The position numbers and the translations under genes were made by a program. A model generated the notes under the pieces. The model was given only the letters and a program-made list of their open reading frames with translations. It was not told where the DNA came from and searched no databases. From positions 1 to 24,095 of IMG/VR virus record IMGVR_UViG_3300019756_000015: a stretch of DNA of 24,095 bases; one strand, given 5' to 3'. The stretch is from a virus. Below are positions 1,205-10,436 of the stretch, one piece after another (position 1 is the first letter of the stretch; every line of letters starts with the position of its first letter).

Positions 1205-4132
1205 ATGTCTAAGTTATTTGGATTTTCCATTGAAGATGATGATAAAAAATCTCCTAGTATAGTATCCCCCGTCGTTCCTAACAATGAAGACGGGGTTGAT
1301 CACTATTTAACTAGTGGATTTTTTGGTTCATATGTTGATATTGAAGGAGTATATAAATCTGAATTTGAACTAATTAAAAGATATCGTGAAATGGCTCTTC
1401 ATCCAGAAGTGGATAGTGCTATTGAAGATATTGTAAATGAGGCAATAGTATCGGATAGTAATGATGTTCCAGTTCAAATTGAGCTTTCTAATTTAAATGC
1501 AAGTGATGGAATAAAGAAAAAAATTAGAGATGAATTTAAATATATTTTAGATTTATTAGATTTTAATAAAAAGTCACACGAAATATATAGAAATTGGTAT
1601 ATTGATGGTAGATTATACTATCATAAAATAATTGACCTAAAAAAACCTCAAGATGGTATAAAGGAGTTGAGATATATTGACGCAATGAAAATGAAATATG
1701 TGCGTCAAGAAAAAAAGAAAGATAATAATGGAAATGGTGCATTTATTAAGAAAATTAATAATGATCCAATGGATTATGAATTTCCCGAAATTGAGGAATA
1801 TTTTATATATAATCCAAAAATGTCTTATCCAACCAGTTCAATGACTGGAAAGTCCTCAAGTGTAACATCTGGGGGCATTAAAATGGCAAAAGATGCAATC
1901 ACGTATTGCACTTCAGGTTTAGTTGATAGAAATAAATCAATTACTTTATCATATTTAAATAAAGCAATTAAATCACTCAATCAACTTCGTATGATTGAAG
2001 ATTCTCTTGTTATCTATCGTTTGTGTTTGATCGGTGATTCACGAGTTAAAACAGAAAATGGATACTCATATATCAAAGACATCAATGTTGGTGATGTTGT
2101 TTATGCTTACGACAACAGAGTTGATGTTCTAGTCAAAACTTCAGTCACCAATAAATGGCTAACTGGAACAAAGAAAACTTATACAGTAAAATCAAAGCAT
2201 CATAGCATCACAGGAACAGATACTCACCCTGTTCTTGTTTATGATTCTAATACAAAAGAAGTTAAGTATGTACCCATCAAGGATCTAATTCCTAAAGTGC
2301 ATTCACTGACTTATATTAAACCAGAATCTACGAATGATATTGTATTGTTCAATGATGTCAGAGAGAAAGCATACTCAATTGTTGATACTCAATTTTGGCC
2401 AACATTTAAACTAGAAGGAAAAGAAAAGTTTATTGAAACTTTATCAGAAAAAACTGGCGTAAAAGAATTAAGAATTAGAAATTTCCTCTATGGCTTACAA
2501 CATTTAGAAGAATCGAGTCTAGTTAAACTTAAAGAAGAGTTCAAAGAACTAAATGATATTGAGTATAACGAGAAGCATGAAGGATTCTGCAATAATGAGC
2601 TTAGTCTCCCTGAGTATGTAACTCCGGAGTTTGCTCGTTTATTTGGATTCTTGCTTGGCGATGGGTCTGTAAGTAAATACAGAGTTGTTTTTGCTGAAGG
2701 AGAAGACGAAGAGCAAAATCTTTATTATGCAAATCTCATGAGAACTTTCTTCGGAAATTGTACAAAATATGATTTAAAGAATAGAAAATACACCAACTAC
2801 ATCACAAGTAATACTCTTGCTGCAGAACTACTAATTTCTCTTGGTTATATTCCAGGAGCAAAAAATAAGAGAATTCCAAGTTGGGTATTTAATGCATCAG
2901 ATGAAATCAAGCGACAACTTGTTTTTGGTCTATTGGATGCTGATGGTCATTATCGTGATCTTGTGAATGGATTCTCATGTGAAATTTCATTGTGTAATAA
3001 ACAACTTATTGAAGATATCAAAGAACTTTGGACTTCTATTGGTTTATGTTCTGGTCAAATTCGCCATAGAATTAGGGAAGAGCAGATGAGAATCGTTGGC
3101 GAGGAAAAAGAACCTCGATTAATGCCAAGAACAGAATGCTATGAACTATATCTAAGTGAGTATGAACTTCCAAAGTTTGAGAAAATTATGTCTGTTGAGT
3201 ATCATTCCGAAGAGGAAGTTTATGATATAGAAGTCGAGCACGAAAAGCATAACTTCGTGGCTAACGGCATTGTGGTGCATAACTCAAGAGCACCAGAAAG
3301 AAGAATTTTTTATATTGATGTTGGAAATCTTCCAAAAGTAAAAGCAGAACAATATCTTCGTGATGTTATGATGAGATATCGTAATAAACTTGTTTATGAT
3401 GCTTCCACAGGAGAAATTCGTGATGATAAAAAGTTTATGAGTATGCTTGAAGATTTCTGGCTTCCAAGAAGAGAAGGTGGAAGAGGAACTGAAATTTCAA
3501 CTTTACCTGGCGGACAAAATCTTGGAGAAATTACAGATATTGAGTATTTTAAGAAAAAATTATATAGATCTTTAAATGTACCACCATCAAGAATGGATGG
3601 TGAAGGTGGATTCAATCTTGGAAGATCTTCTGAAATTTTAAGGGATGAGCTAAAGTTCACTAAATTTGTAAGTCGTTTGAGAAAAAGATTTTCTCAAATG
3701 TTCAATGATATGCTAAAGACTCAACTTATACTTAAAAACATAATAACTCCTGAGGATTGGGATTTAATGCAGCAGCATATACAATATGACTTTTTATATG
3801 ATAATCATTTTTCAGAGTTAAAAGAAGCAGAACTCTTATCTGAGAGATTGAACTTGGTTGCAACTGCAGAACCTTATGTAGGTAAGTATTATTCTCAAGA
3901 CTATGTTCGTAGAAATATTTTAAGACAAACCGATCAAGAAATTATTGAACAAGATGAAATTATTAAAAAGGAAATTGAAGATGGGGTTATTCCAGATCCA
4001 ACAGCAATGGTAGATCCAGAAACTGGACAACCAATTACTGATGATAATATTAGAGGACAATCTGGAAATGTTCCAATAGAACCAGAAATTGATGGTTCTG
4101 CAACTGAAGCACCAGAAGGTGGTGAAATTTAA
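1205..4132 (+). CDS. 20: Portal vertex protein gp20, interrupted in frame by an intein
   Basis: 975-residue precursor. Residues 1-273 and 694-975 are portal protein; joined they make 555 residues, close to T4 gp20 (524). The portal forms the dodecameric ring through which DNA is packaged and to which the neck attaches. N-terminal portal features include SGFFGSYVDIEGVYKSEFEL and YREMALHPEVDSAIEDIVNE; after the insert come SRAPERRIFYIDVGNLPK and the conserved RMDGEGGFNLGRSSEILRDE region. Residues 274-693 are a complete intein with a homing endonuclease (separate entry). The insertion falls between Leu273 and Ser694, in the most conserved motif of the portal, so excision must be exact for a viable virion. 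Both portal halves are intact and in frame. An acidic, proline-rich tail (residues about 925-975) ends the protein. The late-promoter box at 1173 precedes the gene. Confidence 0.95.
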   Translation: MSKLFGFSIEDDDKKSPSIVSPVVPNNEDGVDHYLTSGFFGSYVDIEGVYKSEFELIKRYREMALHPEVDSAIEDIVNEAIVSDSNDVPVQIELSNLNASDGIKKKIRDEFKYILDLLDFNKKSHEIYRNWYIDGRLYYHKIIDLKKPQDGIKELRYIDAMKMKYVRQEKKKDNNGNGAFIKKINNDPMDYEFPEIEEYFIYNPKMSYPTSSMTGKSSSVTSGGIKMAKDAITYCTSGLVDRNKSITLSYLNKAIKSLNQLRMIEDSLVIYRLCLIGDSRVKTENGYSYIKDINVGDVVYAYDNRVDVLVKTSVTNKWLTGTKKTYTVKSKHHSITGTDTHPVLVYDSNTKEVKYVPIKDLIPKVHSLTYIKPESTNDIVLFNDVREKAYSIVDTQFWPTFKLEGKEKFIETLSEKTGVKELRIRNFLYGLQHLEESSLVKLKEEFKELNDIEYNEKHEGFCNNELSLPEYVTPEFARLFGFLLGDGSVSKYRVVFAEGEDEEQNLYYANLMRTFFGNCTKYDLKNRKYTNYITSNTLAAELLISLGYIPGAKNKRIPSWVFNASDEIKRQLVFGLLDADGHYRDLVNGFSCEISLCNKQLIEDIKELWTSIGLCSGQIRHRIREEQMRIVGEEKEPRLMPRTECYELYLSEYELPKFEKIMSVEYHSEEEVYDIEVEHEKHNFVANGIVVHNSRAPERRIFYIDVGNLPKVKAEQYLRDVMMRYRNKLVYDASTGEIRDDKKFMSMLEDFWLPRREGGRGTEISTLPGGQNLGEITDIEYFKKKLYRSLNVPPSRMDGEGGFNLGRSSEILRDELKFTKFVSRLRKRFSQMFNDMLKTQLILKNIITPEDWDLMQQHIQYDFLYDNHFSELKEAELLSERLNLVATAEPYVGKYYSQDYVRRNILRQTDQEIIEQDEIIKKEIEDGVIPDPTAMVDPETGQPITDDNIRGQSGNVPIEPEIDGSATEAPEGGEI
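2024..3283 (+). mobile_element. Intein with two-motif LAGLIDADG homing endonuclease inside gp20
   Basis: 420 residues (274-693 of the precursor). All splicing signals are visible: Cys274 as first residue (CLIGDSRV, block A), the block B motif T338-x-x-H341 in GTDTHPVL, and the C-terminal block F/G VYDIEVEHEKHNFVANGIVVHN ending in His692-Asn693, with Ser694 as the +1 nucleophile. The endonuclease domain between them has two dodecapeptide motifs, LFGFLLGDG with Asp486 and LVFGLLDADG with Asp580; both catalytic aspartates are kept, so cleavage activity is plausible. Known for the class: self-excision from the protein by Cys1/Asn/+1 chemistry, and homing of the DNA into inteinless alleles by a double-strand cut. 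Codon choice looks different from the portal parts, with more ATC, AAC and GGC, which suggests separate origin. Splicing itself is inferred. Confidence 0.95.
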
Positions 4133-8253: not shown

Positions 8254-8273
8254 TTCGGTTCATATATTTTTCG

Positions 8274-8297
8274 GGGAGGAGAAATCCTCCCTTTTTT
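8274..8297 (+). terminator. Rho-independent terminator after gp23
   Basis: Perfect 7-bp stem GGGAGGA / TCCTCCC with a GAAA tetraloop, followed by six T. It ends the late virion transcript. The T run overlaps the stop codon of the minus-strand endonuclease gene; the hairpin is not followed by T in the minus direction, so it acts on + transcripts only. Confidence 0.9.
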
Positions 8298-9801
8298 AAT
8301 GTTCATATCCAAAGCAAATAGTTCCACAGTCATAGATTTTATTATACCCCATTTCTCTTGCCTTTTCATATTCGGTACAATTGTAAGCACCTATAAGTTT
8401 TTTTTGAAATTTCATTCTATTATATCTTTTTAAATAATTCTTATCAACATAGTAATATGACGGAGAATTTATTTTAATCATATTAAATCCATTTTTAGAA
8501 TATACATTTCCATTAGAATATCTTCTATCAGCATAAGATACTATATTTCCAGAATTTTCAGATATAAACCATTTAAGAAGTTTACTAAATCCACCTATCA
8601 CATTTAATCCAATTTTATTTGAAAATCTTGAAAGTTCCCATTCATAATTGGAATTAAATCTAGACTTACAAAAAGTCATTAAACAAACTAATTCATTATT
8701 ATATGTTAATCCAAGTTTAATTCTACTCTTATCTTCACCTTGTAGATGATTAGCATTTAAAAATTTATTTTTTGTGCTAACATCAACTATTATCTTTTGA
8801 CATTTTCTAGCATAAATTTTACCATTCAAATTCAATTTACTTTTTATTAAAGATTTCACAATATCTTTTTTTAAATTCCACTCATCACTGTAAATGTGAA
8901 GTAATTGTATTTTTTTATTTTCGCAAAGTAAAGTTTTATTTAAATGATATGATTTATCTTTAATTAAAGATTCCTTTATCTCATCTGGCCGATAATGATG
9001 AGAATACAATCCATTATATTCAATGGCAAGATTTTTATCTGGAAGGTATATGTCAAGTTCTTTTCCATTCAATATAGATCTATTTGATTGAATTATTTCC
9101 CCACCATATATTGATCTCACATATTCATATAAATCAGTTTCTTCTTTACTTACTTTATTTACCTTTCTTTGATATGAATTAGATTCTCTAGTTTTTATAT
9201 CATATATTTTTAACCATCTTGATATCGTAGATTTTGTAGTGTTAAGGTTTTCAGCGATTTGTTCACAAGTTAATCCACTTTGATACATCTCATATAATTT
9301 ATTTTTATCACTCAAAATAGACAAACTTAAACTATTCCTTCTTCTACTATCAATTAAATTTTCAAGATTATGTAGACATAAGTATTTGTATACTGGAGAT
9401 GTTGATATTTTTAAATTTTTAGCTATATTTTCAATGGATTCTTTTTCTATAATTCTTTTTTGATACATCCACTCATAATCTTCAAGTTTTAATTTCACTT
9501 CTTCACAAATTTTACTATCTTTACGGGAGCAATTTAAATTTGCATATAATCTAAACCCATTTTCAGTATAAGTTTTATCAATTGCACATACTTTACCACA
9601 TCCACATTTACATCTTGGTATATTGTTTTCATCTATATTGTGAATCAAGGTGTATGCTCTTGTTCTTAGTGGGGGATTTATATAATGTTTATCTAAAAAT
9701 GATGTAGATTCTTCAATCACTTTTCTTATATTCCGATTTAACGATAATTTGATGAATGAAGATTTGTCCCAATTGTTTTGAATTAACTCAATTATATTCA
9801 T
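8296..9801 (-). CDS. Free-standing homing endonuclease, Vsr-like/EDxHD type
   Basis: 501 residues, the only minus-strand gene. Order of parts: a cysteine cluster, probably zinc-binding (Cys64, Cys66, Cys68, Cys72 and Cys91); two helix-turn-helix-like segments (about 121-145, ENIAKNLKISTSPVYKYL, and 177-202, CEQIAENLNTTKSTISRWL); a nuclease core at about 225-315 with KELDIYLPDKNLAIEYNG, SHH (268-269), HLNK and LLHIYSDEW; and a C-terminal domain (about 335-475) with the pattern ANHLQG, IKLGL, LMTF, IGGFSKLLKWF, SYADRRYSNG that accompanies such nucleases in many phages. The nuclease core has the acidic, His and Asp positions (Asp250, Glu261, His268/269, Asp306) of Vsr-fold homing endonucleases. 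The gene is intact and has its own promoter. Its likely target is an unoccupied gp23-gp3 junction or nearby gene in related phages (inference). Exact catalytic residues are not certain. Confidence 0.8.
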   Translation of the reverse strand: MNIIELIQNNWDKSSFIKLSLNRNIRKVIEESTSFLDKHYINPPLRTRAYTLIHNIDENNIPRCKCGCGKVCAIDKTYTENGFRLYANLNCSRKDSKICEEVKLKLEDYEWMYQKRIIEKESIENIAKNLKISTSPVYKYLCLHNLENLIDSRRRNSLSLSILSDKNKLYEMYQSGLTCEQIAENLNTTKSTISRWLKIYDIKTRESNSYQRKVNKVSKEETDLYEYVRSIYGGEIIQSNRSILNGKELDIYLPDKNLAIEYNGLYSHHYRPDEIKESLIKDKSYHLNKTLLCENKKIQLLHIYSDEWNLKKDIVKSLIKSKLNLNGKIYARKCQKIIVDVSTKNKFLNANHLQGEDKSRIKLGLTYNNELVCLMTFCKSRFNSNYEWELSRFSNKIGLNVIGGFSKLLKWFISENSGNIVSYADRRYSNGNVYSKNGFNMIKINSPSYYYVDKNYLKRYNRMKFQKKLIGAYNCTEYEKAREMGYNKIYDCGTICFGYEH

Positions 9802-9825
9802 TGAAATTGATACTCTATCATTTAT

Positions 9826-9854
9826 AGTATATATTGTATGGTTTTAAATATCAA
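9826..9854 (-). promoter_or_regulatory. Sigma70-like promoter of the minus-strand homing endonuclease
   Basis: Read on the minus strand: TTGATA (9854-9849), exactly 17 bases, then TATACT (9831-9826). Each hexamer has five of six consensus bases. The predicted start of transcription is near 9819, giving a leader of about 18 bases before the ATG at 9801. A TATAAATG sequence also overlaps the -10 region, so a weak late promoter is an alternative. Confidence 0.7.
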
Positions 9855-9857
9855 CCC

Positions 9858-9865
9858 AATAAATA
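9858..9865 (+). promoter_or_regulatory. Late-promoter-like box before gp3
   Basis: AATAAATA ends only 10 bases before the ATG at 9876, much closer than the 24 bases seen elsewhere. Transcripts from it would have almost no leader, so this box is less certain than the others. Confidence 0.35.
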
Positions 9866-9875
9866 ATAATAAAAA

Positions 9876-10436
9876 ATGACTAAAAATATATACGTTAATC
9901 AAATACAGAATAGAAATTTTTTATCTCCCACTGGATTTAAGCTTAGTCTAGTTAGATCGCCAAAAGTCGCATTTTTTTCAAATGTAGCAAATATTCCTGG
10001 AATAAATTTAGGTATAGCAAATCAACCAACATATTTAAAAGACATTGATATTCCGGGAGATAAGTTAGTTTTTGACGAATTTAGAATTAGTTTTTTGGTT
10101 GATGAAAATCTTGAGAACTTTATGGAGATTCAAAATTGGATGAGAGGGTTAGGATATCCAGAAAGTTTAAAAGAAATATATGATTTGCAAAATGAACCAA
10201 AAACCATTGATAATAGAAACTCACCAATGATGAATATCTATTCAGATGGTACTTTACAAGTTTTTAATAGTTCATATAATACTCAATTCAAAATTATATT
10301 TGAAGATATGTTTCCCACATTTCTTTCTGGACTTAAATTTGATGCTACAGATAACTCAATTGAGTACTTTACAGCAGAGGTAGTTTTTAGATATACTTAC
10401 TATTATATCACAGACACAAAAGGAAATAGATTATGA
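9876..10436 (+). CDS. 3: Probable tail completion and sheath stabiliser protein gp3
   Basis: 186 residues, similar to T4 gp3 (176). In T4 gp3 caps the tail tube end after polymerisation and holds the sheath before joining to the head. The sequence reads as a relative of the tail-tube fold: SPTGFKLSLVRSPKVAFFSNVANIPGI near the N-terminus, IPGDKLVFDEFRISFLVDENLENFMEIQNWMRGLGYPE in the middle, and a C-terminal FEDMFPTFLSGLKFDATDNSIEYFTAEVVFRYTYY that resembles the end of gp19. In cyanophages gp3 follows gp23, and here only the endonuclease gene separates the two. The stop overlaps the uvsY start (ATGA). The gp3 name rests on gene order and general pattern; a baseplate or tube-related protein is the alternative. 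Confidence 0.65.
   Translation: MTKNIYVNQIQNRNFLSPTGFKLSLVRSPKVAFFSNVANIPGINLGIANQPTYLKDIDIPGDKLVFDEFRISFLVDENLENFMEIQNWMRGLGYPESLKEIYDLQNEPKTIDNRNSPMMNIYSDGTLQVFNSSYNTQFKIIFEDMFPTFLSGLKFDATDNSIEYFTAEVVFRYTYYYITDTKGNRL

Follow-up and report, generated by a model that had tools for sequence, protein, structure and literature searches.

The virus record analysed here (the window, 24,095 bases), from a marine phage, has a T4-like gene order, and between the genes for gp23 and gp3 it carries one gene that runs against its neighbours. This raises the question of what this gene is and what ties it to that position. We read it as a free-standing homing endonuclease gene (HEG) of the Hef family, from a lineage that has specialised in the gp23 3' flank, with a probability of about 0.8. 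An earlier note on this DNA had proposed a free-standing mobile HEG with a nuclease of the Vsr/EDxHD type. That part of the reading stands, while the Mom-like domain and the tie of the lineage to the gp23 3' flank had been missed.

The antisense gene and its insertion site

The coordinates, minus strand, length of 501 residues and intact reading frame given in the earlier note are all correct (Table 1). It is also the sole minus-strand gene, as had been claimed, the remaining listed minus-strand ORFs being at most 91 aa long. The nearest GenBank relative around the HEG region is Synechococcus phage B23, which has a 53% identical HEG copy, likewise antisense and immediately before gp3.

Table 1. 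Features of the HEG, its domains and its surroundings (positions in the window).
Feature	Position	Strand	Basis or remark
Divergent tract compared with HEG-free L013	4218..10079 (~5.9 kb)		7-13% divergence inside, ~97% identity elsewhere; contains the HEG
gp23 intrinsic terminator	8272..8297	+	end of T run is the HEG stop codon on the opposite strand
Hef-type homing endonuclease gene (HEG)	8296..9801	-	501 aa, ATG...TAA; antisense to gp23 and gp3; PHROG 3339 'homing endonuclease', 2.9e-96
Mom-like GNAT-fold domain, residues 326-501	8299..8826	-	H352, E389, R392, D425 and Y434 are aligned to residues retained in Mom
Vsr/EDxHD-type nuclease core, residues 216-325	8827..9156	-	profile matches, conserved residues
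N-terminal targeting region, residues 1-215	9157..9801	-	type seen only at the gp23 3' flank
Helix-turn-helix 2, residues ~163-201	9199..9315	-	Pfam HTH_23 8e-8, HTH_7 1e-7
Helix-turn-helix 1, residues ~120-143	9373..9444	-	Pfam HTH_22 match and AF2 helices
Cys cluster C64, C66, C68, C72, C91, possible zinc site	9523..9618	-	sequence and alignment
Late-promoter-like TATAAATG	9819..9826	-	25 nt upstream of HEG start; weak, not conserved in L091
Late-promoter-like AATAAATA of gp3	9858..9865	+	retained despite insertion

Loci picked by gp3 similarity alone yielded 75 gp23-gp3 junctions, 49 of them distinct. The 36 distinct short junctions (52-82 nt) all contain the T run of the terminator, followed in 34 of them by an [AC]TAAATA element, mostly at a distance of 2-3 nt. 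In the junctions of L011-L090 this late-promoter-like element mostly precedes the gp3 start by ~20 nt, which implies a very short gp3 leader. One junction, that of L013 (gp23 97% and gp3 96% identical), is an empty site with 76 nt between the two genes, compared to 1,622 nt in the window. Among the 13 distinct long junctions, a Hef gene was found in 2, a GIY-YIG gene in 2 and an HNH gene in 5. The GIY-YIG and HNH ORFs, which hold this junction in other cyanophage contigs, are unrelated to Hef and sense-oriented (L026, L084, L008; L050, L053, L070, L072, L077, L082, L083).

The HEG stop codon coincides with the end of the terminator T run in the window and in nine other HEG-carrying loci, their terminator stems differing, and the start codon and an ATAAATA element are fused in B23, L098, L099, L102, L103 and L106. 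Both signals, terminator and promoter, thus survive the insertion. With the stop codon in the T run, AATAAATA intact and L013 as the matching empty site, the gene indeed fits precisely into the gap from the gp23 terminator to gp3 without breaking a gene, as first described. Across relatives the HEG is patchy and precisely inserted, and the majority of close relatives are without it; a gene fixed at this site in all of them was what the earlier note had named as speaking against its view. Vertical fixation is ruled out by the patchy presence and the existence of empty alleles.

Domains of the encoded protein

An AlphaFold2 model of the 501-aa protein reached a mean pLDDT of 88.7 (prediction without an alignment gave a pLDDT of 34 and was not usable). 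Sequence, Pfam and the model bear out the previously noticed Cys cluster (residues 64-72 plus C91) and two HTH segments. The nuclease core suspected from the letters also found support, namely a modest profile match of residues 229-320 to 3R3P (I-Bth0305I; E=0.003) and matches of two relatives to the Vsr model (1.8e-5). Across 110 sequences, D250, E261, H268, H286 and K289 are 99% conserved and E248 95%. Domain homology together with this acidic/His set places the core among the Vsr/EDxHD nucleases. A Pfam search with the window protein returned the HTHs only; the nuclease and Mom-like parts surface only with profiles. Two relatives show signs of turnover, as L105 is without residues ~170-225 and the C-terminus of L107 is short and divergent. 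L095 and L096 are 92-97% identical across most of the HEG and ~72% at the N-terminal coding end, possibly through a swap of the targeting part.

The C-terminal domain of the 'ANHLQG...SYADRRYSNG' type, which had been left unnamed, is a homolog of the DNA-modification enzyme Mom of phage Mu (GNAT fold). Foldseek placed Mu Mom (8bv8, by its title the inactive S124A mutant) on top of the PDB matches (2.4e-5), followed by GNAT acetyltransferases, and among the matches in the viral library were the Mom of a Salmonella phage (3e-7) and a 'putative homing endonuclease' of PA5oct. Comparison of 63 Hef C-termini with seven Mom proteins by hhalign gave 97.8% at scores of 84-86; controls scored at most 19.2 (100 shuffled alignments) and 15.3 (Mom alignment reversed). 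The Pfam Mom model stayed under its cut-off in relatives and did not match the window protein, and a profile of the domain found just a weak GNAT match among PDB sequences (2bsw, 0.054).

The five aligned residues correspond, in the order of Table 1, to H58, E108, R111, D149 and Y159 of Mom (241-aa numbering). Among the seven Mom proteins only R111 varies (R or K), the other four showing no change, and the Hef equivalents of all five are each 97-99% conserved in 110 relatives. Y59 of Mom is not retained in the Hef domain, and a counterpart of S124 could not be placed in the alignment. Most annotated Hefs examined read SYANRR, with Asn for the Mom-type Asp. L180, L181, L182, L183, L185, L187 and L188 have this Asn mostly alongside Asn at nuclease position D306 and form a co-varying Hef subgroup. 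Since several classical Hefs carry Asn for Asp, modification cannot be universal in the family. For the lineage of the window, adenine modification by the Mom-like domain is possible, at somewhat less than an even chance.

Hef family, gp23 flank and mobility

Homologs are full-length and 38-99% identical to the window protein (the alignment-based scan covered the best 80 loci, ordered by similarity rather than place), and identity to annotated Hef-like HEGs and to B23 is 38-53%. On homology over the nuclease core and the C-terminal domain, we assign the protein to the Hef family. The family is overwhelmingly viral, with at least 600 matches in viral contigs compared to 46 loci in 84,980 species genomes; these loci come almost entirely from metagenome bins, and for some the match covers the nuclease part alone. 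In the coliphage FL23, a homolog occupies the classical hef place between nrdA and nrdB, as does the gene for Hef of the T-even phage U5, which cuts nrdB (Sandegren 2005, as cited in PMC2988022). Compared through the FL23 copy rather than the U5 protein itself, U5 Hef is likewise free-standing and shares the nuclease and C-terminal domain family, but differs from the window protein in its N-terminal region and locus. Compared with I-Bth0305I and other Vsr-like EDxHD endonucleases, to which the nuclease core and the 3R3P match connect it, the window gene is free-standing, with a different DNA-binding part and an additional Mom-like domain.

The N-terminal region follows the locus. Among the matches listed, 22 of 22 proteins with the window type (at least 40 bits; the next best score was 18 bits) lie beside gp23, and 0 of 79 Hef proteins elsewhere have it; these counts run over related rows, so that a Fisher value cannot be taken as a real probability here. 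We used direct scoring, as single-linkage clustering merged all N-termini into one chain. Carriers span 38-88% identity, the gp23 of some hosts is just 55% identical, and all loci are antisense to gp23 except L111. As gp23 is the constant flank, the target is expected to lie there, and likely within gp23 itself.

Hef genes also occupy this flank elsewhere. In the Straboviridae phages 133, Berthold, fHe-Yen9-01 and PspYZU05, antisense Hefs stand immediately 3' of gp23, with gp24 next where annotated; scoring did not recognise the N-terminal type of the window in these four. In L003 (1291-4846), a distant gp23 is followed by two tandem Hef-like genes with differing N-terminal types, each antisense to it. 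A second recurrent Hef site is the tail sheath gene gp18, with many Hef-like genes adjoining it (L113-L170). T4 segD, the sole antisense HEG of T4, whose activity and target were undetermined (PMC2988022), shares with the window gene the spot behind gp23 (genes 23/24) and the direction; in contrast, it belongs to the unrelated GIY-YIG family and is followed by gp24 instead of gp3. The repeated antisense occurrence of unrelated nucleases at the gp23 flank suggests that they have a common target in the capsid gene.

Presence of the HEG requires 4-6 changes on the gp23 tree, and the HEG tree largely agrees with the gp23 tree apart from local conflicts, for example at L092/L094. Identity to L013, a single metagenome contig that could be chimeric, is ~97% outside 4.2-10.08 kb and 86-93% within (LR 184 vs 66 in block permutations). 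A three-way mosaic with L012 switches at 10058 (10037-10097), ~257 bp past the HEG start. Sites common to HEG-carrying alleles are in excess near the HEG, again with L013 represented by one metagenome contig. A second boundary case is the pair L093 and L094, whose identity drops at the gp23/HEG border, from 87-93% to 71-80%. In other phages, exchanges with nuclease genes at their boundaries have been reported (PMC10448857), and the replaced tract around the HEG would fit either such an exchange or co-conversion. The dN/dS of the HEG relative to L091 is 0.13 overall and 0.11-0.13 per domain, indicating purifying selection on all three. Taken together, a mobile, site-specialised HEG is well supported by these sequence comparisons.

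The gp20 intein that the earlier note had placed about 5 kb from the HEG is real. It carries a LAGLIDADG domain (window ~2025-3283; Intein_splicing 1.6e-12, LAGLIDADG_3 4.5e-6) and is absent from L013 (L235), L236, L237 and the gp20 of B23. L013 is without both elements, and divergence from it is higher right beside the intein (6% vs 2-4%). The intein is an independent presence/absence element, given these absences and the existence of contigs with the HEG and without the intein; the latter also led us to reject a collaborating unit of intein and HEG.

Homing, modification and alternative roles

In the homing reading, the N-terminal Cys cluster and HTHs would read the target, and the Vsr/EDxHD core would cut HEG-free alleles within or near gp23. 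Repair off the HEG-carrying genome would then copy the HEG and flanking DNA into the gap between terminator and promoter. Presence and absence, clean insertion and the replaced tract are the observed outcome of such a putative repair-copy process. Marker exclusion of nearby head genes by the putative HEG, as proposed earlier, is plausible. The Mom-like domain would either modify adenines and so protect the carrier genome, or aid DNA binding. It is possible, if doubtful, that the HEG is self-protecting, a single chain that would cut a rival's allele where this is unmodified and, by means of its Mom-like domain, would modify adenines at or near the target in its own genome.

How much of this involves modification depends on the Mom-like domain, which may equally have lost catalysis and serve in DNA binding only. 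We regard this variant of the homing reading as a serious, still tentative, option: Hefs with Asn at the Mom Asp position remain intact and the equivalent of Y59 is gone, but all five aligned residues are retained in the lineage of the window, and the domain is under constraint equal to that on the nuclease. Mu Mom itself, homologous to the domain, is a stand-alone modifier without a GNAT-like glycine-rich loop, which the window protein has (G403/G404).

The same domain fusion has been described under another interpretation. In jumbo phages, Iyer et al. 2021 (PMC7824862) report Mom domains fused to REase-fold nucleases, which they read as restriction-modification rather than homing; their text counts five momylating enzymes in PA5oct and names neither Hef nor homing. 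In PA5oct, our homology search found five Hef-like places, and two pieces annotated as DNA polymerase flank one of these. From number and domain content, these would be the same five enzymes, and Hef endonucleases and jumbo-phage REase-Mom fusions look like one family under two names. Some annotators already use the label 'nuclease/acetyltransferase', and a literature search of open-licence papers found none linking Hef with Mom. Applied to the window, this interpretation would make the protein a one-chain system of restriction-modification or superinfection exclusion, with a Mom domain that marks the phage's own DNA, a nuclease directed at unmarked rival or host DNA, and an incidental location. 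The Mom homology, the constraint on the domain and the PA5oct correspondence argue for it. We nevertheless consider it unlikely, as the single-locus N-terminus, the clean presence/absence and the elaborate DNA-binding part suit site-specific homing, specificity for one locus is poorly suited to general exclusion, and some family members have exchanged Asp for Asn. Less probable still, and by a wide measure improbable, is that the gene has been domesticated, or is passed on vertically, and serves in regulation or packaging as an accessory gene that has lost its mobility. Purifying selection would agree with it, as would the broad tree congruence, by which much inheritance may be vertical with losses; the patchy presence, the empty site in a 97% identical relative, the mosaic junctions and the further nuclease families at the identical spot argue against it.

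Overall, T4 segD is no isolated case, as unrelated nucleases recur in antisense direction behind gp23 across T4-like phages. Hefs, as selfish homing genes, and REase-Mom fusions, as phage restriction-modification, have so far been treated separately, and their sequences point to one family, so that a single experiment can decide between the two readings. If the HEG is self-protecting, its immunity would be independent of insertion or sequence differences, and Hef HEGs would be united with the REase-Mom 'restriction-modification' fusions. A DNA-modifying homing gene would then provide a new answer to how HEGs avoid cutting their own genome.
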